Source: Bdellovibrionales bacterium
GTDB taxonomy: Bacteria; Bdellovibrionota; Bdellovibrionia; Bdellovibrionales; UBA1609
Direction: 5' to 3'
Assembly (NCBI GenBank): GCA_013216195.1
Contig: JABSOQ010000016.1
Location: forward strand, 1 to 42,984
DNA: 42,984 bases
This document shows positions 7,544 through 22,574 of this stretch, one piece after another (position 1 is the first letter of the stretch; each line of letters opens with the position of its first letter). Position numbers and translations under genes: made by a program. The notes beneath the pieces are model-generated. The model was not told where the DNA came from, did no database searches, and worked only from the letters and a program-made list of their open reading frames with translations.

Positions 7544-8344
7544 ATGGATATAGCCACGGTCGTCGGCCTAATAGGAGGCCTTGCAGTTGTCGGCGCTGCC
7601 ATTGTTTTCGGTGGTAGCCCTGTCATCTTCGTGAACATACCTTCATTTCTGATTGTGATTGTCGGATCCATCTTTGTGGTGGCCATGAAGTTCAGTGTTC
7701 AAAAGCTAACCAACGCAGTTGCGGTTGCAATGAAGGCCTTCTTCTTCACTCTTGAAACTCCCGAAGAAATCATCATTGAGGCTGTAAAACTGGCGAAAAT
7801 TGCAAGGAAAGACGGTCCACTCGGACTAGAAAAAACACAGGTCGCAAACAAGTTCTTGGCACGCGGTGTACGCTTAGTGGTCGACAACACTGATGCTGAT
7901 GTCGCCAGACAGATCATGGACAGAGACCGTATTTCGACCACTGATAGACACGGAGAAGGTCAAGAGATCTTCAACGCGCTAAATGATGTTGCTCCGGCTA
8001 TGGGTATGATTGGTACCCTGATCGGTCTGGTGCAGATGCTTTCAAACATGAGTGATCCAAAGTCTATTGGTCCTGCGATGGCAGTAGCACTTCTCACCAC
8101 TCTATATGGTGCGATTGTATCGAACATGATTGCCAAGCCAATTGCCGACAAGCTCAGCCTTCGAGCCAACGAAGAGGAGTTTTTAAACACTCTTTGTATT
8201 GATGCCATTCATGCTATCGGTAAAGGGTATTCTCCCATGATTGTTGAAGAATCTCTCGTGAGTTACCTCTCTCTCAAGAATCGTGACAAGTTTGCTGAAG
8301 AAAAAGATGAACTTCTGAAGGCTAGTGAAGCCAAAGCTGCATAG
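7544..8344 (+). CDS. motA: Flagellar-type stator subunit MotA (PomA-like)
   Basis: MotA, with MotB, forms the inner-membrane ion channel that drives flagellar rotation. The 266-residue protein has four membrane helices: two near the N-terminus (MDIATVVGLIGGLAVVGAAI; VNIPSFLIVIVGSIFVVAM) and two after the cytoplasmic domain (APAMGMIGTLIGLVQML; MAVALLTTLYGAIVSNMIA), with family prolines in the last pair of helices. The start has a GGGAG site seven bases upstream. motB follows after 10 bases and a K+ channel gene overlaps motB, so the three form an operon. The pattern is nearer to PomA (Na+) than to E. coli MotA, but ion choice cannot be decided by eye. Confidence 0.92.
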   Translation: MDIATVVGLIGGLAVVGAAIVFGGSPVIFVNIPSFLIVIVGSIFVVAMKFSVQKLTNAVAVAMKAFFFTLETPEEIIIEAVKLAKIARKDGPLGLEKTQVANKFLARGVRLVVDNTDADVARQIMDRDRISTTDRHGEGQEIFNALNDVAPAMGMIGTLIGLVQMLSNMSDPKSIGPAMAVALLTTLYGAIVSNMIAKPIADKLSLRANEEEFLNTLCIDAIHAIGKGYSPMIVEESLVSYLSLKNRDKFAEEKDELLKASEAKAA

Positions 8345-8354
8345 GACTAAGTAG

Positions 8355-9134
8355 ATGGGTAAGAAGAAAGAAGGAGGAGGAGCACCGGGGTGGATTGTGA
8401 CATTTGCCGATCTGATGTCACTACTTCTTACCTTTTTCGTTCTACTCCTCTCTTTTGCCGAAATGGACGTTGTGAAGTTCAAAAAAGCCGTAGGCTCAAT
8501 CCGTAACGCCTTTGGTGTGCAATCAAATGGTCAATACATTGACTTTGTAACTTCGAACAACCCCTTTCAACAAGACTTTGCGCAAGGTGCGGTTCAAGTA
8601 GAAGACTATGACTTTCCTCAGCCACAATTGGCTCCTGACTTTGAGAATTTTTGCGAGCTCGAGCAGCAAAGAATAAAGCGTGACGAGGTCGAGCTTAAAA
8701 CCATGGGTGTTAAAATCACTGAAGCTCTCACCAAAAGTGGGCTAGACGAGTTTGTTGACTTAGAAATCAATCGTGGCCGTTTGAAAATGAAGATGAAGTT
8801 CTCAAACTTCTTCAACAAAGGTAAAGTCAAACTCGACTCTGATGCTAAAAAGGTTATGGAGCGAGTGGTTGATATCTTAGATCAACAAGACTTACCCTCT
8901 CGCATGACGTTCACCCATTACTCACCAGGTAAGCTCTCAAAAGCTGAGCTAAAAGAGTGGCGGCTTTCTAGCCAAAGAATAATCGCCATGGCTACCGAGG
9001 CCAAACAGGCCGACTTCGAGATGATCAAAGAAGTGGGCGTTCAAAGTCGAAAACCTGCGTCGAGATCACAATCTTCAGACATGTGGAATCGATTTGATAT
9101 TATTCTCGCCATATCTCAGGAGAAAACAAAGTGA
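8355..9134 (+). CDS. motB: Flagellar-type stator subunit MotB with degenerate peptidoglycan-binding domain
   Basis: The 259-residue protein has the MotB N-terminus: a short charged tail, APGWIVTFADLMSLLLTFFV with the ion-carrying aspartate of the single membrane helix, then a periplasmic part ending in an OmpA-like domain. That domain is unusual. Where MotB/OmpA proteins have GHTD, whose Asp helps bind diaminopimelate, this one has THYS; the later LSxxR (RLSSQRI) and NRFDIIL parts remain. Anchoring to peptidoglycan may differ from E. coli MotB. It follows motA by 10 bases, and its TGA stop is shared with the GTG start of the channel gene (GTGA at 9131-9134). Confidence 0.9.
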   Translation: MGKKKEGGGAPGWIVTFADLMSLLLTFFVLLLSFAEMDVVKFKKAVGSIRNAFGVQSNGQYIDFVTSNNPFQQDFAQGAVQVEDYDFPQPQLAPDFENFCELEQQRIKRDEVELKTMGVKITEALTKSGLDEFVDLEINRGRLKMKMKFSNFFNKGKVKLDSDAKKVMERVVDILDQQDLPSRMTFTHYSPGKLSKAELKEWRLSSQRIIAMATEAKQADFEMIKEVGVQSRKPASRSQSSDMWNRFDIILAISQEKTK

Positions 9135-10123
9135 GCAGAGAAGACTACTCCACCACGGGGTCGTTTAAGTTTCTCTATCTCATGGCGGGCGTAATTCTAT
9201 CGGGCACACTCGGCTACACACTGATCGAGGGTTGGAGCTGGTTTGATGCTCTGTACATGACAGTCATCACCATCTCAACCATCGGCTACGGAGAGATACA
9301 GGAACTCTCTGACCCGGGCCGAATCTTCACGATTGCATTGATTTTTACAGGTGTTGGGGTTTTCTCATACGGCCTAAAAGAGCAGATTGAAAATTCAACT
9401 TTGTTAGACAGAAATGAGCTCAGGAGACGACGCATGCTAAAAACCATCAGGCAGCTCAAAGGTCACACCATAGTTTGTGGTTTTGGCCGAATGGGACAAA
9501 CCGTTTGTGAAGATTTATTTCGATCCGAACAAGATTTCGTTGTCATAGAAAATGACCCTACAAAGTGTGAGATTATCAAACAGCAAGGCTATCTTTATAT
9601 TGAAGGAGACGCCTCTGACGACAATGAACTTATCGAGGCCAACATCGAGTCAGCCCGAGCCATGGTTATTTGCATAGATAGCGATGCTGACACTCTCTAC
9701 ACATTGGTAGCGGCTAAAAATATCAACCCTGATATTTTTAGCATTTGCCGCACTAACGATGAAATCGCAAAAGTCAGACTTACTAGGATTGGAGCCGATA
9801 AGATTGTTCAGCCGATCACAGTCACAGGCAAAGAAGTGGCGCGAGACATCGTGCTAGTAACAAATCAAGTGCCCTACTACACGGCTGACCTCTCGTTTTG
9901 CTCAGAGTACAACACTTACATTCTCGAGCATCCTGTTGAAGAAGGTTCAGATCTAATTGGCTCGACAGGCGAGTCCCTTATCGAGACTATGAATCAAAGA
10001 AGTTTTGTAACTATTGGCATTCTCAACAAACACGACCAGTTCACCTTCATATCTAAGTTTGAAGGCCAAATTGAACCTGGCGACCGCATCGTAGGCGCTG
10101 GAGACATTAGCCAAGGCGCTTAA
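9131..10123 (+). CDS. Two-helix K+ channel with RCK (TrkA-N) domain
   Basis: The 330-residue protein has a helix (KFLYLMAGVILSGTLGYTLI), a pore loop with the selectivity filter TIGYGE, a second helix (IFTIALIFTGVGVFSYGL), and then a cytoplasmic RCK/TrkA-N domain starting GHTIVCGFGRMGQTVCEDL, a Rossmann nucleotide-binding loop, with VVIEND after the second strand and a TrkA-C-like end. This is the MthK/Kch architecture: a ligand-gated potassium channel of the inner membrane. The GTG start overlaps the motB stop, so it is translationally coupled to the stator operon. That pairing suggests a link between motor ion flow and membrane potential or K+ balance, which is inference. Confidence 0.9.
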   Translation: MSREDYSTTGSFKFLYLMAGVILSGTLGYTLIEGWSWFDALYMTVITISTIGYGEIQELSDPGRIFTIALIFTGVGVFSYGLKEQIENSTLLDRNELRRRRMLKTIRQLKGHTIVCGFGRMGQTVCEDLFRSEQDFVVIENDPTKCEIIKQQGYLYIEGDASDDNELIEANIESARAMVICIDSDADTLYTLVAAKNINPDIFSICRTNDEIAKVRLTRIGADKIVQPITVTGKEVARDIVLVTNQVPYYTADLSFCSEYNTYILEHPVEEGSDLIGSTGESLIETMNQRSFVTIGILNKHDQFTFISKFEGQIEPGDRIVGAGDISQGA

Positions 10124-12284: not shown

Positions 12285-13970
12285 TTATTCGTCGACTAGG
12301 CCTTCTAAGTAGCTCATAAGCTCCTCCACGGCCGAGAGAGAAGGCACGTGGCCCTTTGGCATTCTCTCAGAGCTATGTGCATAATCACCCGTTCGGTATC
12401 GAATTTCGTCTAAGAGGGTGCCTCGAGGGTAACCTCCCTGCACCAACACAGAGGCAAGCCTAGCTGGGTTATCAAATGGAATGTAAGGCATGAGATCGTC
12501 AACTTCTGCAATGTCATCAGAGTGACAACTCACACAACGATTGATCAAAGGTCGATTAGACTTCAACTGCTGAAAAGAAGCCGGAAGCATCACACTGCCT
12601 GAGCTTACCAACTGGTCGTAAACCTTACGGGCCTCAACCTCTCTTTCAAAAGCGTCATCACACTGAGCTCTTGCCGCCTCCATCGTTTTCGAGCTGCCTA
12701 TGTAGGCGTAATCTTCTGCCTGTACATTGTAGTTTTCAGAGTCATACTTCTGCATCCCCAAGGCCAAGAAAGGCTCCACCGAATGCGGGTTGCGCAATCG
12801 ATCTACCTTTTTATTCGCCGACAATCTACCACCAGTTCTGAAATCCATAGACCAATCTTCAGTGCTAATACCTAAAGGAACAAAAATCGCATCAAGCTCT
12901 TCGCTCATACTTACCGCATAAGGGTAGGCCGAAGGGTATTTCTCAACCGGCCTAGGAAGAAAACTGTAATCGCAGCGTTTGTTGGTTACCAGTATTAGAC
13001 TCGGCAGAACCGTCTCATAAAGATTTTGATCTAGACTCGTAATAATTCGACCTAACCTGTACGAATTCAAAATTGCCAAGTTCTTAGTAAACTCCAGCAC
13101 GAATTTCGGCCCTGGGAACTCCCCTAGGTACTGATAGCGAGCATGCTCTGGTTGAACATCATGTATCCAGTTGTAAAGCCACACTTTCTCTTGCTTGTGC
13201 TTCTCTAAGAGATGGCGGTCTCGGTCAGTGTCAAAACGGTTATTGGCACCGATGTAGCGCGACAGTTCACCATCTAATGAGCCGATGGCCCCAGGCCAAG
13301 TGTTGTAAGGCTCCCAATTGGGCCTCGGATCATTTTGCTCTGGCTGAGCTCTCCAATCGGCTTGATGGCAATTCATGCATTTTGCAGGGTTAGCCTCAGA
13401 TAAAATGGGCTTGCCACCGCTAGCGCTAAAAGAAATCTCTCGAAATTCGAAAGTGTCGGTATCAGAGCGAAACTGCATAATCTCAAGCTGCGAGAAGCCT
13501 GATTGATCAGGGTGACCATTGAAACTGAATACCATCTCTTTTGAACCAGCTAGCGAGAGCACGCGCGGGTTCTCAGGGCTCGCCTTCTGCAGACTTCTAC
13601 TCTCATACATTAAGACGTACTTCTCTAAAGATTTCGGGTAATTCTCTTTGATGGCAGCGAGAGTTTGCTCAACTGTGTTCAGATTTTTATCTTCAATCAA
13701 CTTTACCAATTTCTCGTAACTAAAATCGTCAGTCTTATTGGTAAAGCTCAGGCCATGTGCATAATCATCGGGAAAGAACTTGTCTGGACGAGCCATGTAC
13801 TGAGCGAAACTGGCTGAACCAAATTGAAAGCCATCCACGTACTCACTACCCGAGACCTCTGACGAAGAACTGTACCCCGACCTGTAATTCCCAGGGTTCG
13901 CAACAGAAACTCTCGTAGCAAAAGCGCTGAATCCAACAATAAGAGATATGATCAAAACCCTTGAGCCCAT
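12285..13970 (-). CDS. Secreted di-haem cytochrome c-like protein
   Basis: The 561-residue protein has a signal peptide (about 1-24, FATRVSVA-NP) and two haem c attachment motifs far apart: CMNCH (198-202) and CVSCH (479-483). The second lies in a small C-terminal cytochrome c-like module (from about 460); the first is within a long N-terminal region that I cannot assign. It should be exported and loaded with haem in the periplasm. ATG 13970 has a GGGGGAG site just upstream. The gene before it on the strand (14054-14782) is 83 bases away and may be cotranscribed. The partner or electron acceptor is unknown. Confidence 0.78.
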   Translation of the reverse strand: MGSRVLIISLIVGFSAFATRVSVANPGNYRSGYSSSSEVSGSEYVDGFQFGSASFAQYMARPDKFFPDDYAHGLSFTNKTDDFSYEKLVKLIEDKNLNTVEQTLAAIKENYPKSLEKYVLMYESRSLQKASPENPRVLSLAGSKEMVFSFNGHPDQSGFSQLEIMQFRSDTDTFEFREISFSASGGKPILSEANPAKCMNCHQADWRAQPEQNDPRPNWEPYNTWPGAIGSLDGELSRYIGANNRFDTDRDRHLLEKHKQEKVWLYNWIHDVQPEHARYQYLGEFPGPKFVLEFTKNLAILNSYRLGRIITSLDQNLYETVLPSLILVTNKRCDYSFLPRPVEKYPSAYPYAVSMSEELDAIFVPLGISTEDWSMDFRTGGRLSANKKVDRLRNPHSVEPFLALGMQKYDSENYNVQAEDYAYIGSSKTMEAARAQCDDAFEREVEARKVYDQLVSSGSVMLPASFQQLKSNRPLINRCVSCHSDDIAEVDDLMPYIPFDNPARLASVLVQGGYPRGTLLDEIRYRTGDYAHSSERMPKGHVPSLSAVEELMSYLEGLVDE

Positions 13971-14909: not shown

Positions 14910-14937
14910 TAAAGAGCCTAAATTATGACGGCGATAA
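14910..14937 (+). promoter_or_regulatory. sigma-28 (FliA)-like promoter
   Basis: TAAAGAGC (14910-14917), a 12-base spacer and GGCGATAA (14930-14937) match the flagellar sigma-28 consensus (TAAA with GCCGATAA) in 4 of 4 and 7 of 8 positions; the spacing is one base longer than the usual. It points to the motor-like cluster gene at 15173 with a leader of roughly 230 bases. Confidence 0.4.
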
Positions 14938-14964
14938 GCAGCCCTTACCCGCCGGCCGACCCAA

Positions 14965-14985
14965 GCCAAATTCCGTCAATTTGGC
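14965..14985 (+). promoter_or_regulatory. leader hairpin
   Basis: GCCAAATT (14965-14972), loop CCGTC and AATTTGGC (14978-14985) form a perfect 8-bp stem downstream of the sigma-28-like promoter. It is not followed by a U-run. Confidence 0.3.
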
Positions 14986-15172
14986 GGGCTCCTTTGGAAA
15001 CAATTACACTGGTGAATTCAGCAACTTAGACTCGTTTTGAAAGCTACTGCTCTAACAGCTACAGGTTTGAGTAGAGGCCCGCTTCGAACCAATACTTGAT
15101 CATTTGAGAGCCCCCTTCCTCGCACCTATCTTGCATTAGCTAGGCTCAGGAAGAATTCAAAAAGGAAAACAG

Positions 15173-17266
15173 ATGAAACAGACCAAGACCGGCCTAATGG
15201 CTTTGACGTTCACTTTCATGGTTTGCCTTTCGCTAAGTGCGAGCTCTGATGTAGCTGAAAAAGTTCGAGACAGACTGAGATCTGCTGATCTTAGCGTTGA
15301 TACAGATTTAGTCGACATTAACCTTACCGACTTTGCTCGAGCGCGATTCAATATTGGAGTCGGAGTTCGCCAAAACCGAGATAAAAAAACCTACTCGAGA
15401 ACCGAAAGAGTTAAACTTGGTGCCTCGATCGGACGCTCTTTTGGTGAGAACATTTTTTTTAATTCATTTGTCGACGGAGGCTCCGAACTCGAGATTATCA
15501 GGCAGTTTGATTCACAAGTTGCTGCTCTCAATATAGCCTCTACACCTCCCTATAACCCTATGGAGAAGATCCCGGTGTCTGCTGAAAAAGCTCAGGGCTT
15601 GGCTGTTGGTGACTACGTGAAATTTAAATCTCGATTGGCCTTTTCTGTTGGCCCAAGAACAGCGCACTCCATTGGTATCACTCGAATTAGTGGTGCTGTT
15701 AGCTACCTGCTTTACGGTGACTTTCAAATGGAAGTCTACAAAATGGATGATGATGAATATCTACTCAGAGCCTCGACTCTCAAAAAGGGTACGAAGAGCT
15801 TGAGCTTAAGCTATCAACCCACATCTGAACTGAAACTTTTTGCGGTTGTGGCGGGAGGCTTTCAAGGCAAGGTGCTCGAGCAGATTGAAAAAACACTCAT
15901 CCCTACAACCTTTGCCAGCGTCTCAACTCACGAGAGCAGTGGCAACCTTTTGACGATTGAGTATCTTTACAACTTTGATAGCCCTTCTGATCCTGGCGCA
16001 AAAGCATTTGAAGACGTAGTGAATCCCGAGAATTGGGTACGAGACTCATTTGAAATGCTTAATCCTCTCAGAGAGCAAGACAGATTGGCAGAAGCTATTC
16101 AGGTTCGTTTTGAAGAATCAGAGCGACTCGCTGACTTGGCTACTGACTCGGAGTATGACGTACTTAGAAACTCAAGATCAGATGCAAAGTTTAAAGAAAA
16201 CGGTGGACGCATCAGCCTTGACCTTAAATTGATTGATGGCGGGTGGAACACCAACTTTGTGCAGCAAGACTTAACCGTGCAAGATTCAGCAGGCCTCTGG
16301 AAGAAGTACCGAATCGTGAACCTGGTTAAGCAATCGCAACTGGGCTTTCTTGGCTTGCTAGGAGTTAAGACCAGACGTGAGGGCAACTTGGTTTTTGAAA
16401 TGAACGAGCAAGGCTTAATCGACAACTTTATGAACCTCAGCTACCACTACTCAAGAGATGAAAAAACCTTACGCCGCTCGGAGCTCGATGACATTCAAGG
16501 TCAGATTCATAGAATGATGCCTGAGAAATATCACAGTCAATTGACACTCGACCAATGGGAAAGCCGAATACTGAGAAGAGACACTCGAGTTGACGCCGAG
16601 CTCATCTTTCATGAGCCCGGCTGGGAGCTTGTTAGCCGCCTCGGCATGCAAGAGATGAAAGACTTTTTGGCTGACTACTTTCAAATGATTAGTGATGGCC
16701 AAGAGCAAAAACCAAAGCGTTACGGTAATCTTAGGGTTCGCAATGGGTCTCAATCGACAGACAAAAGTTATCTTGAAAACGCTAAGAGTGACATAGAATA
16801 CATCGAGAGATGCTTACCAGCCGCACTATCTCGTAACTCTGGCGTTCTCACTGGCTACGACCCAAAGAGACAGTTCAGATGCTCTTCTACTGAGATCGAC
16901 TTCACTATCCCCTCACTTGGCGAACTTCTCGGCCGTAAGCAAGATAAAAAAGGCGACCCGAGGCTCGTGACCCATGAAGAACGATGGCAGTATTTTGTGG
17001 CTTTGAGAAAAAACATTACCTTCTTTCAGCTGTCTTCTGGAATTCTAGCCAGACTTCTTGAGCTCGCAATAGAAAAGCATGCTCAAGGTACCAGCTTCTC
17101 AGACTATGCTGCATTTCGCCTGGTTGCCACCACAAAAGATGAAGGCGCTATCGAAGTCACTATCGGAGACTTTGACCAAGCGGATGGCATGAGAAACATA
17201 CTTCGCTCTCGAGATAGAATCTTGAATCGTGAGTTTGACCCCGAGATCTTCAAAGAGCTGAATTGA
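15173..17266 (+). CDS. Secreted 697-residue protein of unknown function, motor-cluster member
   Basis: The protein has a signal peptide (about 1-24: GLMALTFTFMVCLSLSASS) and no further membrane helix. The first 280 residues alternate polar and hydrophobic residues, with many strands (RARFNIGVGVRQN, VKLGASIGRSFGENIFF, LSLSYQPTSELKLFAVVAGG), as in outer-membrane or periplasmic beta domains. The C-terminal half is more helical, with two cysteines (CLP, CSS near 570-590) in a possible disulfide. No family is recognised. It lies next to a convergent motB-motA pair and close to a FliF/FliG-like gene, so it may be the outer or periplasmic part of that machine. AAGGA lies six bases before the ATG. 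Confidence 0.7.
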   Translation: MKQTKTGLMALTFTFMVCLSLSASSDVAEKVRDRLRSADLSVDTDLVDINLTDFARARFNIGVGVRQNRDKKTYSRTERVKLGASIGRSFGENIFFNSFVDGGSELEIIRQFDSQVAALNIASTPPYNPMEKIPVSAEKAQGLAVGDYVKFKSRLAFSVGPRTAHSIGITRISGAVSYLLYGDFQMEVYKMDDDEYLLRASTLKKGTKSLSLSYQPTSELKLFAVVAGGFQGKVLEQIEKTLIPTTFASVSTHESSGNLLTIEYLYNFDSPSDPGAKAFEDVVNPENWVRDSFEMLNPLREQDRLAEAIQVRFEESERLADLATDSEYDVLRNSRSDAKFKENGGRISLDLKLIDGGWNTNFVQQDLTVQDSAGLWKKYRIVNLVKQSQLGFLGLLGVKTRREGNLVFEMNEQGLIDNFMNLSYHYSRDEKTLRRSELDDIQGQIHRMMPEKYHSQLTLDQWESRILRRDTRVDAELIFHEPGWELVSRLGMQEMKDFLADYFQMISDGQEQKPKRYGNLRVRNGSQSTDKSYLENAKSDIEYIERCLPAALSRNSGVLTGYDPKRQFRCSSTEIDFTIPSLGELLGRKQDKKGDPRLVTHEERWQYFVALRKNITFFQLSSGILARLLELAIEKHAQGTSFSDYAAFRLVATTKDEGAIEVTIGDFDQADGMRNILRSRDRILNREFDPEIFKELN

Positions 17267-17356
17267 GAGCTGAGGGTTATAACTTTTCGACTGAAGATCT
17301 CTAGTCTACTTGGGGCACGGGCAATTAGCTCGAAGCCCACAAGTCAATTCGTATTG

Positions 17357-18127
17357 TTATTGTTTTGAGGCCGGCGCTCTCTCTTCTAGAATCAAAGAGA
17401 GACTTCGCGTGTTGCGAGTTTGAAAGGCCACACCTTTGGCGCTGACCTGGTAGGGGTCAAGACCCCACTCTAGGGCTTCGTTCAAGGCTCGTGTGGCTCG
17501 AAGTACACTTAAGTCAAAATTGTTTCTTAAATGCTTAGATCGCAACCTCACAATTTTGGACTGATCGGTATGACCGATAATGGTGATTTGAAGCTCACCT
17601 AGGTAGGGCTTCAACTTCGTTAGCACACTGAAGAACAACTTTCGACCACTGTCGGGTAGGTCTACTCCTCCAGGATTAAAAAGCTTATCTGGAAAATGTA
17701 AGACCAATTGCTTCTCTTTTTCTTCTATTTTAAAGCCACCCTGCGAGATGATTCTCTTCAGAGTTTCTGCTGGTTTTCTATCATATTTGCCTTCTTTGTC
17801 AGGACCGCCAAAACCTGCTCCTGAAAAAGCAAAACCTCCACCTGTGCCTTCACCAGCACCACTACCTGAACCTGAACCTGAACCTGAACCATCACCAGAT
17901 CCTTGGCTACCGGTACCTGAGGCGTCAATCACGATCTTGTCAATGATCGACTGGGTCTTTTCTTTACTGTACGAGAAGAAGATAATGAAGAAGCTCAAAA
18001 GTACCATAAGAAAGTCGGCATACGAGACGGCCCATGATTCACCTTCTGACTCAAAATACTGCTCTTCAGGAGGTTCAATTCGAATGCGTCTACGCTTGTG
18101 ACTATCCCGCACGTTGACTGACCTCAT
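17357..18127 (-). CDS. Second MotB-type stator subunit with Gly-Ser linker
   Basis: The protein has a basic N-terminal tail (SHKRRRIRIEPPEEQ), one membrane helix with SWAVSYADFLMVLLSFFII, whose Asp is the expected ion site, a low-complexity GSGSGSGSG linker, and a proper OmpA-like domain (ITIIGHTDQSK ... LSVLRA ... KGVAFQ). Unlike the MotB at 8355, the GHTD peptidoglycan residues are present, so it should be a wall-anchored stator. ATG 18127 is preferred over an in-frame TTG at 18133. It overlaps the preceding motA-like gene by 26 bases (coupled translation). The residues after GHTD are shortened at the C-terminus compared with flagellar MotB. Confidence 0.87.
   Translation of the reverse strand: MRSVNVRDSHKRRRIRIEPPEEQYFESEGESWAVSYADFLMVLLSFFIIFFSYSKEKTQSIIDKIVIDASGTGSQGSGDGSGSGSGSGSGAGEGTGGGFAFSGAGFGGPDKEGKYDRKPAETLKRIISQGGFKIEEKEKQLVLHFPDKLFNPGGVDLPDSGRKLFFSVLTKLKPYLGELQITIIGHTDQSKIVRLRSKHLRNNFDLSVLRATRALNEALEWGLDPYQVSAKGVAFQTRNTRSLSLILEERAPASKQ
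17865..17888. repeat. Tandem hexanucleotide repeat in the MotB linker
   Basis: Four exact tandem copies of CCTGAA (plus strand) encode the Gly-Ser repeat of the MotB linker. Copy changes would stay in frame and alter linker length. Confidence 0.8.
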
Positions 18128-18812
18128 CCTCAATCAAGTCGACTGGCTCATCTCCATTAACCAGCAGCAACAACTCGTAGAGATTGAGGCAGAGTCTTTT
18201 GTAGCGCACTTGTTTTACATGCAACCGGTCAGCCAATGGATTCAAAAGGGCGTTGGCAATGAATAGTCCAAAAAATGTAGCCGTCATCGCAAGGGCTAAA
18301 CTCTCCCCCACGCTGTTAGCCTGACTATCTAAATTTTTAAAGAGCGCCACCATACCCATAACGGTACCCATCATACCCAGTGCCGGTGGGTATTTGGCTA
18401 GGTTCTTCAAAGCGTGAACAGCGTCAGACTTTTCGGCGATGAGATCATTTCTCTTTTGCGACAGCAAGGCGACAAAAAGATCGTTGTCGATCCCCATCTC
18501 CCACAGCTGAGCAGCGTAATTGATAAGGGGATGACCGCTCTGCTTAAGCAAGGCTTTTGTTTTAGATAGTTCAACAATGTCATGTCTGTAAGAGTCTATG
18601 GAATGATGAGACGAGCTGTAGACCATCTCTTTGAGACCAATAAGAATGTTTCGAATCCCTCTCCCCGGCACAGAGAAAAAGATAATTGCCAAAGTTCCAC
18701 CAACCACAATTAAGATTGAGTGGTACTGCATATACACATCTAGGCTACCCTCAAGTGAGAGCCCCAAGACAGCAAGCATTCCAAAAAAGCCAATAAATAA
18801 GGTCCAAGACAT
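18102..18812 (-). CDS. Second MotA-type stator subunit
   Basis: This 236-residue MotA/TolQ/ExbB superfamily protein has an N-terminal helix pair (MSWTLFIGFFGMLAVLGLSL; YHSILIVVGGTLAIIFF), a cytoplasmic loop, and two more helices (YPPALGMMGTVMGMVALF; LALAMTATFFGLFIANAL) with the usual end NPLADRL. It is the partner of the MotB that overlaps its 3' end. It diverges from the lipoprotein and FliF/FliG-like genes across a 176-base gap, so both arms may share control. Sequence differs clearly from the MotA at 7544, so this is not a recent copy. A non-flagellar motor role is inferred from context; TolQ/ExbB or a plain second flagellar stator are alternatives. Confidence 0.88.
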   Translation of the reverse strand: MSWTLFIGFFGMLAVLGLSLEGSLDVYMQYHSILIVVGGTLAIIFFSVPGRGIRNILIGLKEMVYSSSHHSIDSYRHDIVELSKTKALLKQSGHPLINYAAQLWEMGIDNDLFVALLSQKRNDLIAEKSDAVHALKNLAKYPPALGMMGTVMGMVALFKNLDSQANSVGESLALAMTATFFGLFIANALLNPLADRLHVKQVRYKRLCLNLYELLLLVNGDEPVDLIEDEVSQRAG

Positions 18813-18988
18813 ATTGAAGTATCGGAAGCAATCACCTGAACCTTACTGGACCAGTGTCTGTGTTTAGCTGTTATTCGTTGAATTTTGTTAATCTAGCGTA
18901 AAAACTAGCCCTTTGTCCGTAAAGCCGCGTTGTAGAGCCTCCGAAAACAAGAGAGTAGAAAAATTTTAATATTTTCGCGGACTGGTGA

Positions 18989-19552
18989 ATGAATAAAATC
19001 TTGTTAGTTTTGTCAGTATTAGTTTTTGTAGGCTGCTCGACGAGCGGATCGCAAAACACTGTGAGTGTTACGCTCAAGCAAGACGTACAGGTGCGCTACC
19101 CTGACGGAAGCGAAAAGCAAAAAGCCAAAGACTCGCAAATCAGTGTGAAAGATCAAGCACTCTTGGTTGAAAAGGCCGGCCATGTGGATGTAATGATTGT
19201 TCCATTGAATACGAAATCAGGCAAAGCCGAGCTCAGACTTAAACCTATCAAAGAGTTTGGTGGACCAGAACTCGACAAGTTTATAGATGCTTACGTGACC
19301 AAACTTATGACAAAAATCACTTTGGTCCAAGAGAGCCTTTCACGTTCACAATACAATCTTGCTCTACAAAAAGTGAAAGCTCTGCAGGTTGAATATCCGA
19401 ATTTAGTATATCTACAGTTTCTTGAAGCGAGCTGCTTGACGCTTATGGGTCAAAACGCTGAAGCCAAGCGAGTTCTCACGCGCGCGTTAGAAGATCACCC
19501 TGACAACCCCGAGGGGCAGCGACTTAATCGATACTTGAGCGGGAGCAGGTAA
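18989..19552 (+). CDS. Lipoprotein with C-terminal TPR-like repeat
   Basis: A type II signal peptide (MNKILLVLSVLVFVGCSTSG) puts the lipid on Cys16. Residues 25-80 look like a small beta domain (VSVTLKQDVQVRYPDG ... ALLVEKAGHVDVMIV), as in PEGA-type domains. Residues 105-185 form paired helices (QYNLALQKVKALQVEYPNL; YLQFLEASCLTLMGQNAEA; VLTRALEDHPDNP) typical of tetratricopeptide repeats, which bind proteins. It is followed after one base by the FliF/FliG-like gene and is surely cotranscribed with it. A role as a periplasmic scaffold of that complex is inferred. Confidence 0.72.
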   Translation: MNKILLVLSVLVFVGCSTSGSQNTVSVTLKQDVQVRYPDGSEKQKAKDSQISVKDQALLVEKAGHVDVMIVPLNTKSGKAELRLKPIKEFGGPELDKFIDAYVTKLMTKITLVQESLSRSQYNLALQKVKALQVEYPNLVYLQFLEASCLTLMGQNAEAKRVLTRALEDHPDNPEGQRLNRYLSGSR

Positions 19553-19553
19553 C

Positions 19554-21035
19554 ATGAAAACTCTAGGCTCAATCTTTTCTCTTATCACTTTTGTCTTAGG
19601 CTCACAGCTTGTATCTGCAGAAAGCAATCAAGAGTCTGTGATTCGTGAACAGGTTTCTTCGATCATCAAGTCTTATGATGAGAAGGCAACGTTTCAACTC
19701 AAATTCTCGAATTACTCATCCTCAAGAGCTAGCCGAGATAGCATACCCTTTGCACCGAACTCAGGGCGTACTGGTAATACGTCAAGCTATCTTGGAAAAA
19801 TCGAACTCAAGATCTTTACTCAATCACAAGAGCTTGTGCAAGGAGCACTCAGCACTCTTGAACTCTATCTGGGCGCTTACACAAAAAACGTAAGTATCAA
19901 TGTCGTAGATGTCGAAAGCAATGTCGTCTCATCACCAGAGGTTAAAAAGAAGTGGTATGACTATATGTTCAAGTCAGAGCCTCAATGGGTTATCGCTTTC
20001 TCACTCCTCTTCTCATTTTTGTTTCTAGCTCTAGTACTACTTGCAGCATCACGAAGAAGCATTAAAGCGATTTCAAGCGTAGAAGACGCTGTAGCGCGAG
20101 TGGGCCAAAATATGGCTGGTCAGAGCAATAAGTCCAACAAACAGCGAAATCAAGCGGACGCAGCAGTTACAACCGAAGACATCTCTGATTTTAAAACTTA
20201 TTTGTCTGACCTCAAAACAGATAGTCTGTTGGAAATGCTTGCAGACTGCTACTGGACTCACAACGACTCTTATGCCGCTGGTCTATGGAATGCGATGACT
20301 GCTACACAAAGAACTGAAGTGGCCAAGCTGACCTCTTGGGCTCAGGAGTATGCTGAGCATCTACTGACGGTAAAGCCACAGTTCTTTTCGAAATTCTACA
20401 GCCCCTACTACTTAAAGCCACTTCCACTGAACTCACTGGACCAGGCTGGCCTGTCAGAGGTAGTCGAGAGCAACCCTGATCTGTACAGCTTGATCTCAGA
20501 GCTTAGAAATGAATATCTGAGCATCAGCAGTGAGTGTCGTATTGAATTCGAAATGAACCGAAAAGACTCCGTCGACGAGGTAACTCGAGAGGCTCTTTTG
20601 AAAAAGATTGGGGCGGCAAAGACTGGCCAATCACGCTCTTTCGCATCGACTCGAATGATCCCGATCAATTCAATTGAAGACGAAGCCAAGCTTCTTGGTC
20701 GAAAAGACTTAGGCCTTGATATTATGGTGAGAATTCCAACGCTTGCATGGCTTAAGTACGAAGATAAAGAGAAGCTCACGACAGAGCTGCGCAAGTACAG
20801 CGCACAAGACCTCGCCGGTGCTTGGGTTGGCCCTGAAGAGGTTCTCAATTACATTGAAGAACTGATCCCAGAAAAGAAAATGACACTGATTCGATCTTAC
20901 TTAGAGCGAGTTGCTGAACCTTCTCGCCATGATCCGACTTTTGAAGAGCTCTCACGCCTCGGTATTGAGGCACTGATCGCACGCACCATGAATGGACAAC
21001 TTGACTCGGAAGTCACCCAAGATGAAGCGGCCTAG
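19554..21035 (+). CDS. Membrane protein joining a FliF-like periplasmic segment to a FliG-like cytoplasmic part
   Basis: The 493-residue protein has a signal peptide (1-22), a periplasmic region (23-143) with strand-helix-strand sequence resembling a ring-building domain (IELKIFTQSQELVQGALSTL ... NVSINVVDV), then KKWYDYMFKSEP and one membrane helix (145-166) ending in RRS, as seen at the C-terminal helix of FliF. The cytoplasmic part has an Armadillo/FliG-middle-like helical stretch (about 210-275) and, at 395-480, a run that aligns well with the FliG C-terminal motor domain: LTTELRKYSAQDLAGAW, GPEEVLNYIEELIP, LIRSYLERV. FliG's C-domain is what MotA pushes on. With motAB next door, this is likely the rotor or coupling part of a motor. 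Similarity is by eye only. Confidence 0.65.
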   Translation: MKTLGSIFSLITFVLGSQLVSAESNQESVIREQVSSIIKSYDEKATFQLKFSNYSSSRASRDSIPFAPNSGRTGNTSSYLGKIELKIFTQSQELVQGALSTLELYLGAYTKNVSINVVDVESNVVSSPEVKKKWYDYMFKSEPQWVIAFSLLFSFLFLALVLLAASRRSIKAISSVEDAVARVGQNMAGQSNKSNKQRNQADAAVTTEDISDFKTYLSDLKTDSLLEMLADCYWTHNDSYAAGLWNAMTATQRTEVAKLTSWAQEYAEHLLTVKPQFFSKFYSPYYLKPLPLNSLDQAGLSEVVESNPDLYSLISELRNEYLSISSECRIEFEMNRKDSVDEVTREALLKKIGAAKTGQSRSFASTRMIPINSIEDEAKLLGRKDLGLDIMVRIPTLAWLKYEDKEKLTTELRKYSAQDLAGAWVGPEEVLNYIEELIPEKKMTLIRSYLERVAEPSRHDPTFEELSRLGIEALIARTMNGQLDSEVTQDEAA

Positions 21036-21645
21036 ACTTGCAATCACCGTTCTTGCTACTATAGCTCTGTCTGGCCACCTGCTCTTTAGTAAACAGGCTA
21101 CGGCAAGCTCTCTTAAATCACCAGTTGAGAACCAAGAGGAGAAAAAGGCCTCATTGGTTCTGAATGCAGGCTACGCTTCGGCTGACAATGCCAATATTGA
21201 AGGGGTGTCTTTCTATGAAGCTGGGGCTGGACTAAACTTTGCTCTTAACGAGAACTTTTCGGTTACAGCGCAAGTTTCTCAAGGTCTTCTCACTTCGAAT
21301 TTTGGAACAGGCTTTACTTCTCTTGGAATGGGTATCGAGTATTCTCTTCTGGGCAGCAATACCCTAAAGCAACAGCAGGTCTCGCTAGAGAATTATAGTG
21401 TCTTTGATTTACAAGGGCGGCCAAATTCTTCTCTCGCAGTTTCAATCAATGCAAGACAGGTGTTCTTTAACGGTAGCGATCAAGTTTACCCCTTCACTGG
21501 TGTCGGTGCATGTGCCAAATACCGCCCTTTTGTAACTGCCACCGGGTACTGGGGCGTAGATCTCTGCTATGACTACCTACTCAACCCACCAAACAGCACC
21601 TCTATGTTCAGAGCCATGCTTGGATGGTCTGTTTTTCTATTCTAG
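21022..21645 (+). CDS. Small outer-membrane beta-barrel-like protein
   Basis: The start is placed at ATG 21022, which gives a signal peptide (MKRPRLAITVLATIALSGHL, end near ATAS) and a 14-base overlap with the preceding gene; an ATG at 20992 would add ten polar residues. The 207-residue product has about eight amphipathic strands (ASLVLNAGYASA, FYEAGAGLNFALN, FSVTAQVSQG, FTSLGMGIEYSLLG, SSLAVSINARQVFF, AMLGWSVFLF) and ends in phenylalanine, the usual mark for outer-membrane insertion. It likely forms the outer-membrane end of the lipoprotein-FliF/FliG-like operon. Confidence 0.68.
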   Translation: MKRPRLAITVLATIALSGHLLFSKQATASSLKSPVENQEEKKASLVLNAGYASADNANIEGVSFYEAGAGLNFALNENFSVTAQVSQGLLTSNFGTGFTSLGMGIEYSLLGSNTLKQQQVSLENYSVFDLQGRPNSSLAVSINARQVFFNGSDQVYPFTGVGACAKYRPFVTATGYWGVDLCYDYLLNPPNSTSMFRAMLGWSVFLF

Positions 21646-21752
21646 CTTCAAAGCACGAATTTGTGTCTTAACCAAAAGCCGCGTTGGCCCCAAAACCCCA
21701 ATATGAATATTAGAGATTGACTCCTAACACCCAATTGAACGACTTTTGCTAT

Positions 21753-22574
21753 ATGAAAACTCTGTACTTGATCCTGATAATTTGTTTTTTTGCAACAGGC
21801 TGCAAAGACAAAGCTAAGCCGACATCTCAACTTTCTGGAGTTGGTCGTGAAACAGCCGGTAATGTCAGTTTTCAGTGGAAAGACAGTGAAATCATTGTCA
21901 ACGAAACCTTACTCGAAAAAAAGGGTCTAACAGTTAAAACAAGAACTTTGCCTGACCCAAACAGCCGGCAAGACACGCTCTACAAGGGCGTGGTCTTTGC
22001 AGATTTGCTCAAGCTGGTAAAGAATGAATTGGCTATTGATCAAGACATTGTTGAAGTGCAGTTCATAGCATTAGATGGCTATGTACTAAGAGTAAAACCC
22101 CATGAGCTAGAAAACCGGCAAGTCTTTTATGTCTTACGAACCCCAGAATTGAATGATTTTAAAATTCGCAACCTTTCGTTGAACGTGAACTTCGACTGGC
22201 GACCTGGTTATGTGCTTTTGCCAAGGTTCGAAAACAAAAAGGGCTCCACAAGCCCCTACCAAGTTAAGACCGTAAAGCTACTTGATACAGTCGGCGAAAA
22301 CCCGATATTGGCAGCAGCTGGCGAAGAGCAAATTGCTGGCGCTAAGATCTTTGTTAAATCGTGCAGCAAATGCCACAGCCACTTCGGCTTTGGTGGCTTC
22401 AAGGCTCCGAAAATTGAACTCATGACTATCAGATACCCCAATGACAGCGCGTTAATGAAATTTCTGAGAGCACCATCTCAGACTTTAGGCCGGCCTATAG
22501 GTATGTCTGCCTTCGAAGGGTCGGATGAACAGATGGCCTCTTTGGTGCAATACCTAAGAACTCTTGAACAGTAG
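21753..22574 (+). CDS. Cytochrome c lipoprotein
   Basis: ATG 21753 opens a lipoprotein signal (TLYLILIICFFATGCKDK, lipid on Cys17); a longer frame from 21717 is not needed. The middle (GVVFADLLKLV ... VQFIALDGYVLRVKP) resembles a piece of the sulfite-oxidase-type molybdopterin fold, but without an evident cofactor cysteine. The C-terminal part holds one haem site, CSKCH (residues 202-206), in a small cytochrome c domain with GKxxF-like EEQIAGAKIF before it. It should be a membrane-tethered periplasmic electron carrier. It stands alone after the motor-like operon. Confidence 0.78.
   Translation: MKTLYLILIICFFATGCKDKAKPTSQLSGVGRETAGNVSFQWKDSEIIVNETLLEKKGLTVKTRTLPDPNSRQDTLYKGVVFADLLKLVKNELAIDQDIVEVQFIALDGYVLRVKPHELENRQVFYVLRTPELNDFKIRNLSLNVNFDWRPGYVLLPRFENKKGSTSPYQVKTVKLLDTVGENPILAAAGEEQIAGAKIFVKSCSKCHSHFGFGGFKAPKIELMTIRYPNDSALMKFLRAPSQTLGRPIGMSAFEGSDEQMASLVQYLRTLEQ

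Follow-up and report, generated by a model that had tools for sequence, protein, structure and literature searches.

In the flagellar motor, FliG is anchored by FliF and turned by MotA; we know of no flagellar rotor part that works outside a flagellum. Whether a stator and rotor of this kind can form a machine of their own is the question raised by a 42,984-nucleotide stretch of DNA, hereafter the window, from a Bdellovibrionales bacterium (GenBank assembly GCA_013216195.1, contig JABSOQ010000016.1). The window lies on contig C68 of a 4.1-Mb genome (296 contigs, 98% complete). In named collections, its relatives are metagenome-assembled genomes (MAGs) of the Bdellovibrionota, bacteria of predatory type. 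At 17357-21645 it carries a cassette of five genes, encoding MotB, MotA, a tetratricopeptide repeat (TPR) lipoprotein, a 493-residue FliF/FliG-like membrane protein and a small putative outer-membrane (OM) barrel. We use “FliFG” as shorthand for the 493-residue protein and its family, and “window-type” for cassettes of the type found at this locus. A first-pass annotation of the sequence had proposed a non-flagellar envelope motor driven by MotAB, with a FliF/FliG-like rotor. This proposal is supported by similarity to FliG and FliF, by synteny of the five genes and by separate flagellar genes, and we consider it likely that these genes specify an ion-driven envelope machine of their own, separate from the flagellum, which would move surface adhesins or supply them with energy.

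A stator pair beside a FliF-FliG-like fusion protein

The cassette consists of two divergent operons, and the open reading frames (ORFs) of both lie where the first-pass annotation had placed them. On the minus strand, MotB (17357-18127; 256 residues with a transmembrane (TM)/plug segment, a glycine-rich linker and an OmpA-like C-terminal domain) and MotA (18102-18812; 236 residues, of a cassette-specific subfamily) overlap by 26 bp. A divergent gap of 176 bp (18813-18988, from the ORF coordinates and the sequence), in which a promoter scan did not find a consensus sigma-70 site, separates this stator operon from a rotor operon on the plus strand. The latter begins with the TPR lipoprotein (18989-19552; lipobox VFVGC; TPR_19 at E 5.8e-5, just under the cut-off), followed after 1 bp by FliFG (19554-21035), which in turn overlaps the gene for a secreted protein of 217 residues (20992-21645) by 44 bp. 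The TPR lipoprotein, which probably faces the periplasm or OM, has relatives in nearly all cassettes, and larger TPR lipoprotein homologues are present in the paralogous cassettes described below. The 217-residue protein has no TM helix by hydropathy and a C-terminal phenylalanine; from these features, and from a position conserved in most cassettes, it is a putative OM beta-barrel. Nothing useful came from searching PDB profiles with an alignment of the barrel, and neither this protein nor FliFG had a meaningful family in a Pfam scan of the window ORFs.

The stator pair is of the flagellar kind. MotA matched PF01618 with 61 bits (cut-off 22.9), and its best PDB profile matches were PomA/MotA (E 1.6e-28). 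The window MotA and 15 cassette MotAs formed one clade (support 100/100) far from ExbB; judged by its sequence, the cassette MotA is closer to MotA/PomA than to TolQ/ExbB. MotB matched MotB_plug (PF13677; 34.9 bits, cut-off 24), and the ion-channel residue Asp38 in its TM helix was invariant in 21 of 21 sequences. The OmpA-like domain scored below the PF00691 cut-off (21.9 bits versus 27.2), and its residues G185, H186 and D188 (GH-x-D), R210 and R241 were invariant.

The rotor candidate, FliFG, gave no FliG (including FliG_C) or FliF match in a direct Pfam scan, and the case for homology therefore rests on profile-profile, paralogue-chain and fold evidence. Compared directly by hhalign, the FliFG family scored 29.0 against FliG (shuffle maximum 24.8), which is weak on its own, and profile A8 found FliG in the PDB only at E 0.17-0.44. 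The chain through paralogues was much stronger. The window FliFG family matched three paralogue groups with hhalign scores of 52-59 (group gD alone gave no match), and one of the groups, gA, matched FliG at E 5e-11. A paralogue profile built without any FliG matched the M and C domains of FliG structures in the PDB at E 3.9e-25, and the same profile also matched true FliG in nearly every genome of the class. In addition, a FliFG-family member in one genome (G036) exceeded the Pfam FliG_C cut-off (23.5 bits). Through these paralogues, the sequence-based case for FliG homology of FliFG is firm.

Predicted structures agreed with the profile chain. AlphaFold2 (AF2), given 21 sequences, modelled FliFG (predicted local distance difference test (pLDDT) 77) as a signal peptide, an alpha-beta-beta-alpha-beta domain at residues 25-119, a single TM helix and, on the cytoplasmic side, a helical part. 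When the full model was compared with 350,542 PDB chains by Foldseek, ranks 1-6 were FliG, and below them came further FliG entries, FliF and inner-ring proteins of type III secretion; E-values were modest (0.05 and up). With the cytoplasmic half folded alone (pLDDT 89), Foldseek ranks 1-10 were all FliG. VIA-align of this half likewise returned FliG as its top 14 entries (Z 6.2-9.0), with the next entry at Z 3.5 and the best coverage placing FliFG 383-478 on FliG 225-322. A simple MgtE-type domain was rejected as an alternative identity, since the soluble part of MgtE reached Z 3.5 compared with 9.0 for FliG. The similarity to FliG that had been proposed for residues 395-480 is thus borne out by profile-profile, fold and PDB-profile searches, but over a longer range: the FliG middle and C-terminal-like region spans residues ~286-478 (20409-20987, plus strand), of which 383-478 is the FliG_C equivalent. 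Residues ~207-285 showed no FliG_N match in the VIA-align alignments shown, the membrane part being fused directly.

For the periplasmic half, the evidence of resemblance to FliF RBM3 is weaker than that for the FliG half. FliFG scored 38.4 against FliF by hhalign, compared with a maximum of 24.0 among 40 shuffles and 26.6 for the reversed sequence. A FliF-like part had been placed at residues 80-166; this similarity is present, but the range had to be corrected to an RBM3-like domain at ~25-119 (19626-19910) and a single TM helix at ~146-164 (19989-20045; hydropathy peak 2.87; AF2 helix 143-188), both on the plus strand. By AF2 and hydropathy, FliFG contains a single RBM-like domain and a single TM helix behind its signal peptide, and FliF RBM1, RBM2 and the first TM helix are absent. 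FliFG thus reads as a naturally occurring fusion of FliF-like and FliG-like parts that comes with a MotAB pair of its own. Because the FliG-like and RBM3-like halves are joined in one protein, one polypeptide would replace both the MS-ring subunit and the torque subunit of the C-ring.

Conservation of the cassette and its relation to the flagellum

A FliFG search of 59 relatives gave matches in six other genomes, and all six hold all five cassette genes together. Three have the divergent order of the window, and three have a single operon in the order lipoprotein-MotA-MotB-FliFG-barrel. Linkage of the same five genes therefore survives rearrangement. In the reverse test, with the MotA subfamily as bait, a scan of 84,980 species genomes from an independent collection found 34 loci, 23 of them in Bdellovibrionota. 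The FliFG gene was present in 22 of these 23, and the remaining locus (L090) ends just past MotB at a contig edge; FliFG was found at none of the 11 MotA-bait loci outside the phylum. The five-gene synteny is kept across Bdellovibrionia, Bacteriovoracia and Oligoflexia MAGs, and the five genes co-occur more than expected by chance. The first-pass annotation had grouped six genes; five are conserved together, while the sixth, a 697-residue neighbour considered below, is not linked. Within the phylum, a FliFG profile matched 39 of 369 genomes at E <= 0.001 (about 30 of them strongly), and the cassette is therefore sporadic.

Paralogous cassettes occur across the class, with several copies per genome (loci L083, L121-L132, L148, L159 and L165). 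These contain a TPR lipoprotein, usually MotAB, a FliFG-like protein of ~560-650 residues, a barrel-like protein and often a giant lipoprotein. Two further FliFG-type cassettes lie in the window's own genome, on contigs C46 and C244. Another is found in B. bacteriovorus HD100 (L173, G061:C1:2913420-2920190), in the order FliFG, a 325-residue protein, a barrel-like protein, a lipoprotein, a second barrel-like protein on the opposite strand, MotB and MotA. In HD100 the FliFG gene spans 2,913,420-2,915,153 and the MotAB genes 2,918,347-2,920,190, all on the minus strand, and a large gene lies nearby. Judging from gene order, the MotAB of this HD100 cassette is probably MotAB2 (Bd3021/Bd3020). In a two-hybrid assay, the FliL protein Bd1076 interacted with itself and with MotB3, whereas neither MotA2 nor MotB2 gave an interaction (PMC11323537).

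This conservation bears on whether the cassette is a decayed flagellar relic, in which fused fliF/fliG remnants and leftover motAB have lost their function in a machine. All recognisable parts other than the OM ones do stem from flagellar families. However, the reading frames are intact across more than 20 divergent loci, several paralogous copies persist per genome, and MotB Asp38 and FliFG residues Y233, W234, D238, R361 and E377 are invariant in the family. We regard a relic as highly improbable.

We also asked how the cassette relates to the flagellum of its host. The true FliG of the genome adjoins FliF on contig C60, and FlhA and nine flagellin matches also lie on contigs other than the window's. 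None of the window ORFs scanned for Pfam families matched a rod, hook, export or filament family, in line with the first-pass annotation. Only four of 17 MotA/ExbB matches in the genome have a MotB plug partner, the others looked at being ExbB/TolQ-type or unrelated. Three MotB-plug loci are additional to the cassette (window 8355-9134, C46 and C254), and the second MotAB pair of the window (7544-9134), which is more canonical, keeps the R...E torque motif. Because the genome has other MotAB pairs and true flagellar genes, the flagellum does not have the cassette pair as its sole stator. The first-pass annotation had named two outcomes that would refute its proposal, a lack of FliG/FliF similarity, or complete flagellar genes elsewhere that need this pair as their sole stator without conserved synteny; the proposal withstands both.

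Relatives without flagella were informative. Two of them, G017 (99% complete) and G024 (97%), lack FlhA, flagellin and FliG; they keep MotAB and a paralogous set of lipoprotein, FliFG and barrel genes accompanied by a giant gene. Four others (G003, G004, G016 and G022) have neither FliFG nor a MotB plug. This pattern argues that MotAB serves FliFG of the paralogous type, in a comparison of small numbers (two genomes with FliFG and four without, all MAGs). The orphan MotA on C254 of the window's genome groups with the MotAs of G017 and G024 (support 100/97).

These data can be set against the view that the cassette is an accessory flagellar set, in which MotAB and FliFG plug into the polar flagellar motor, either as additional stators or as an altered torque ring, and the lipoprotein and barrel form a sheathed-flagellum scaffold. 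All window-type carriers tested also have flagellar genes, the flagella-less cases being of the paralogous type, and published work treats the MotAB pairs of B. bacteriovorus as flagellar stators (PMC11323537). Against this view, the paralogous cassettes and MotAB persist in G017 and G024, the window-type cassette is present in only 7 of 59 genomes so that most flagellated relatives do without it, and cassette neighbours are adhesin-like rather than flagellar. Moreover, an addition to the C-ring would not need the RBM-like domain and TM anchor that FliFG has of its own. An accessory flagellar role is unlikely in our assessment.

A proposed mechanism and the points that weigh on it

What might such a machine move? 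We examined 22 window-type loci for giant neighbours. In 12, a secreted protein of 929-2432 residues is encoded directly beside the cassette, and in three more a giant gene lies behind a DsbA-like lipoprotein. The giant proteins contain Laminin_G_3, fn3, He_PIG, Invasin_D3, Big_1, NHL, Ig-like ASH/HYDIN and Fibrinogen_C domains, of the kind usual in surface adhesion proteins. In one branch, a lipoprotein of 458-502 residues separates the giant gene from the cassette (L102 3031-4407, equivalent to L075; L103 just before 9426; L080 11912-13420); in L075 it is thioredoxin/DsbA-like.

We propose that stators of the MotA5-MotB2 type, anchored through the putative peptidoglycan-binding domain of MotB, would use ion flow to exert torque on the FliG-like cytoplasmic half of FliFG, whose subunits would form a ring in the membrane. 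It is very likely that MotAB drives the FliFG protein, and reasonably likely that FliFG forms a rotating ring. In the periplasm, the TPR lipoprotein and the putative OM barrel would take up the motion and, in most relatives, hand it on to the giant Ig-, lectin- or invasin-domain surface protein encoded beside the cassette; the chances that force reaches the OM or an adhesin seem to us evenly balanced. That the machine ultimately produces gliding, or movement related to predation, is a tentative suggestion.

In addition to the flagellar genes of the window-type carriers, several observations weigh against this proposed machine. No giant gene adjoins the window cassette itself. In VIA-align of the 25-119 domain, FliF RBM3 (Z 7.9) was tied with other alpha/beta folds (KH and ZnT domains). 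The torque residues of E. coli FliG (K264, R281, D288, D289 and R297) are only partly kept: in the hhalign register two of the five charges remain (K441 for R281 and R458 for R297), and the equivalents of K264 and D288/D289 are uncharged. Likewise, the MotA segment corresponding to that with R90 and E98 in E. coli is deleted, leaving a 7-residue gap relative to the canonical window MotA. Loss of charge on both the MotA and FliG sides would fit a re-tuned private interface, although it does not prove one. Finally, Morehouse et al. (2011) reportedly found that deleting each of the three HD100 motAB pairs mildly reduced swimming, so the cassette MotAB may also serve the flagellum.

The partial loss of torque charges also favours a non-rotating transducer, in which a TolQR/ExbBD-like MotAB would have FliFG relay a conformational change to the OM for envelope integrity, secretion or display of the giant protein. 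The lipoprotein and putative barrel resemble an energised OM-coupling system, and the FliFG ring is itself something that we infer. Yet the cassette MotA is nearest to PomA/MotA, not TolQ/ExbB, and its partner has the MC fold of FliG, the part that MotA is known to turn. We judge such a transducer improbable, slightly more so than the accessory flagellar set.

For the ion-driven adhesin machine, the likeliest use is gliding, prey-surface movement or attachment, because Bdellovibrio gliding is independent of flagella and pili; a 2026 review describes its machinery as unidentified and names motor, adhesins and force transmission as a major open challenge (PMC13104615). The cassette family provides gene candidates for all three, and together with a paralogue in HD100 this makes the question of the gliding machinery directly testable. 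If the proposal is true, the natural occurrence of such a fusion, equipped with a dedicated MotAB, would mean that the stator-rotor module is detachable and re-usable, and FliFG would offer a minimal rotor for the study of torque. We speculate, with considerable reserve, that the cassettes represent an undescribed class of rotary machine, with a merged FliF/FliG subunit driving giant adhesins, which has diversified in Bdellovibrionota, including HD100, and is the phylum's missing motor, with adhesin, for gliding or prey entry.

Known systems and neighbouring genes

The closest known system is the flagellar motor, with which the cassette shares a PomA/MotA-type stator, a MotB plug, the FliG M/C fold and, less securely, a MotB peptidoglycan-binding domain and a FliF RBM3-like periplasmic domain. 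In contrast to the flagellar motor, the FliF- and FliG-like parts are fused within 493 residues, torque charges are partly changed, and RBM1/2, FliM/N, export, rod, hook and filament are missing from the cassette locus, where a TPR lipoprotein, a putative OM barrel and an adhesin take their place. Engineered FliF-FliG fusions such as Vibrio FliFG (PMC11481574) also hold both parts in one polypeptide; these are flagellar proteins themselves, whereas cassette FliFG is natural, shortened and located outside the flagellar gene cluster. The Bacteroidota GldLM motor and its type IX secretion system (T9SS) comprise an ion motor of the 5:2 type, for which a role in moving adhesins at the surface via envelope parts has been proposed (PMC13104615). 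Unlike the cassette, GldLM is not MotAB-type and lacks a FliG/FliF rotor; no T9SS genes were seen at the cassette locus. Similarly, Myxococcus AglRQS-Glt couples an ion-driven stator across the envelope to surface adhesion, but Agl is classed with TolQR/ExbBD-type generic transporters (PMC12505986) and lacks a FliG/FliF rotor, and Glt proteins were not seen at the cassette locus. Zorya ZorAB is a MotAB-like pair, and cassette MotB gave weak PADLOC ZorB matches; however, the partners of the cassette pair are envelope proteins and ZorA, ZorC and ZorD were not matched. Zorya-type defence was ruled out, there being no PADLOC match to MotA, the lipoprotein, FliFG or the barrel. A 2025 survey of MotAB treats flagellar-type stators as one flagellar group (PMC12505986). 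The open-licence literature searched did not describe any non-flagellar motor of the FliF/FliG-like kind, an absence that is not proof of novelty.

The window cassette is flanked by a convergent gene for a secreted 697-residue protein (15173-17266, plus strand) and by a gene for a cytochrome c lipoprotein. The 697-residue protein, which has no Pfam match, had been counted as part of the unit; it does not belong there, as its homologues occur in 12 of 59 relative genomes on contigs other than the cassette's. It was rejected as a sixth component because phylogenetic profile and location both disagree with the cassette. On either side of the region lie a CxxCH-containing secreted protein (12285-13970) and the cytochrome c lipoprotein (21717-22574), and a TrkA-type potassium channel gene (9131-10123) directly follows the second MotAB pair of the window.

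FliG_C domains were also found in smaller proteins. Many relatives encode a soluble FliG_C protein of ~220-255 residues (E down to ~1e-13) away from flagellar and MotAB genes (L082 2891-3658; L085 5876-6604; L086 5918-6586; L133 3112-3786). Very short frames of 143-166 residues gave strong FliG_C matches (E 1e-21 to 1e-30; for example G038:C16:3007-3321 and G044:C31:74795-75115), and these are perhaps stand-alone torque domains.

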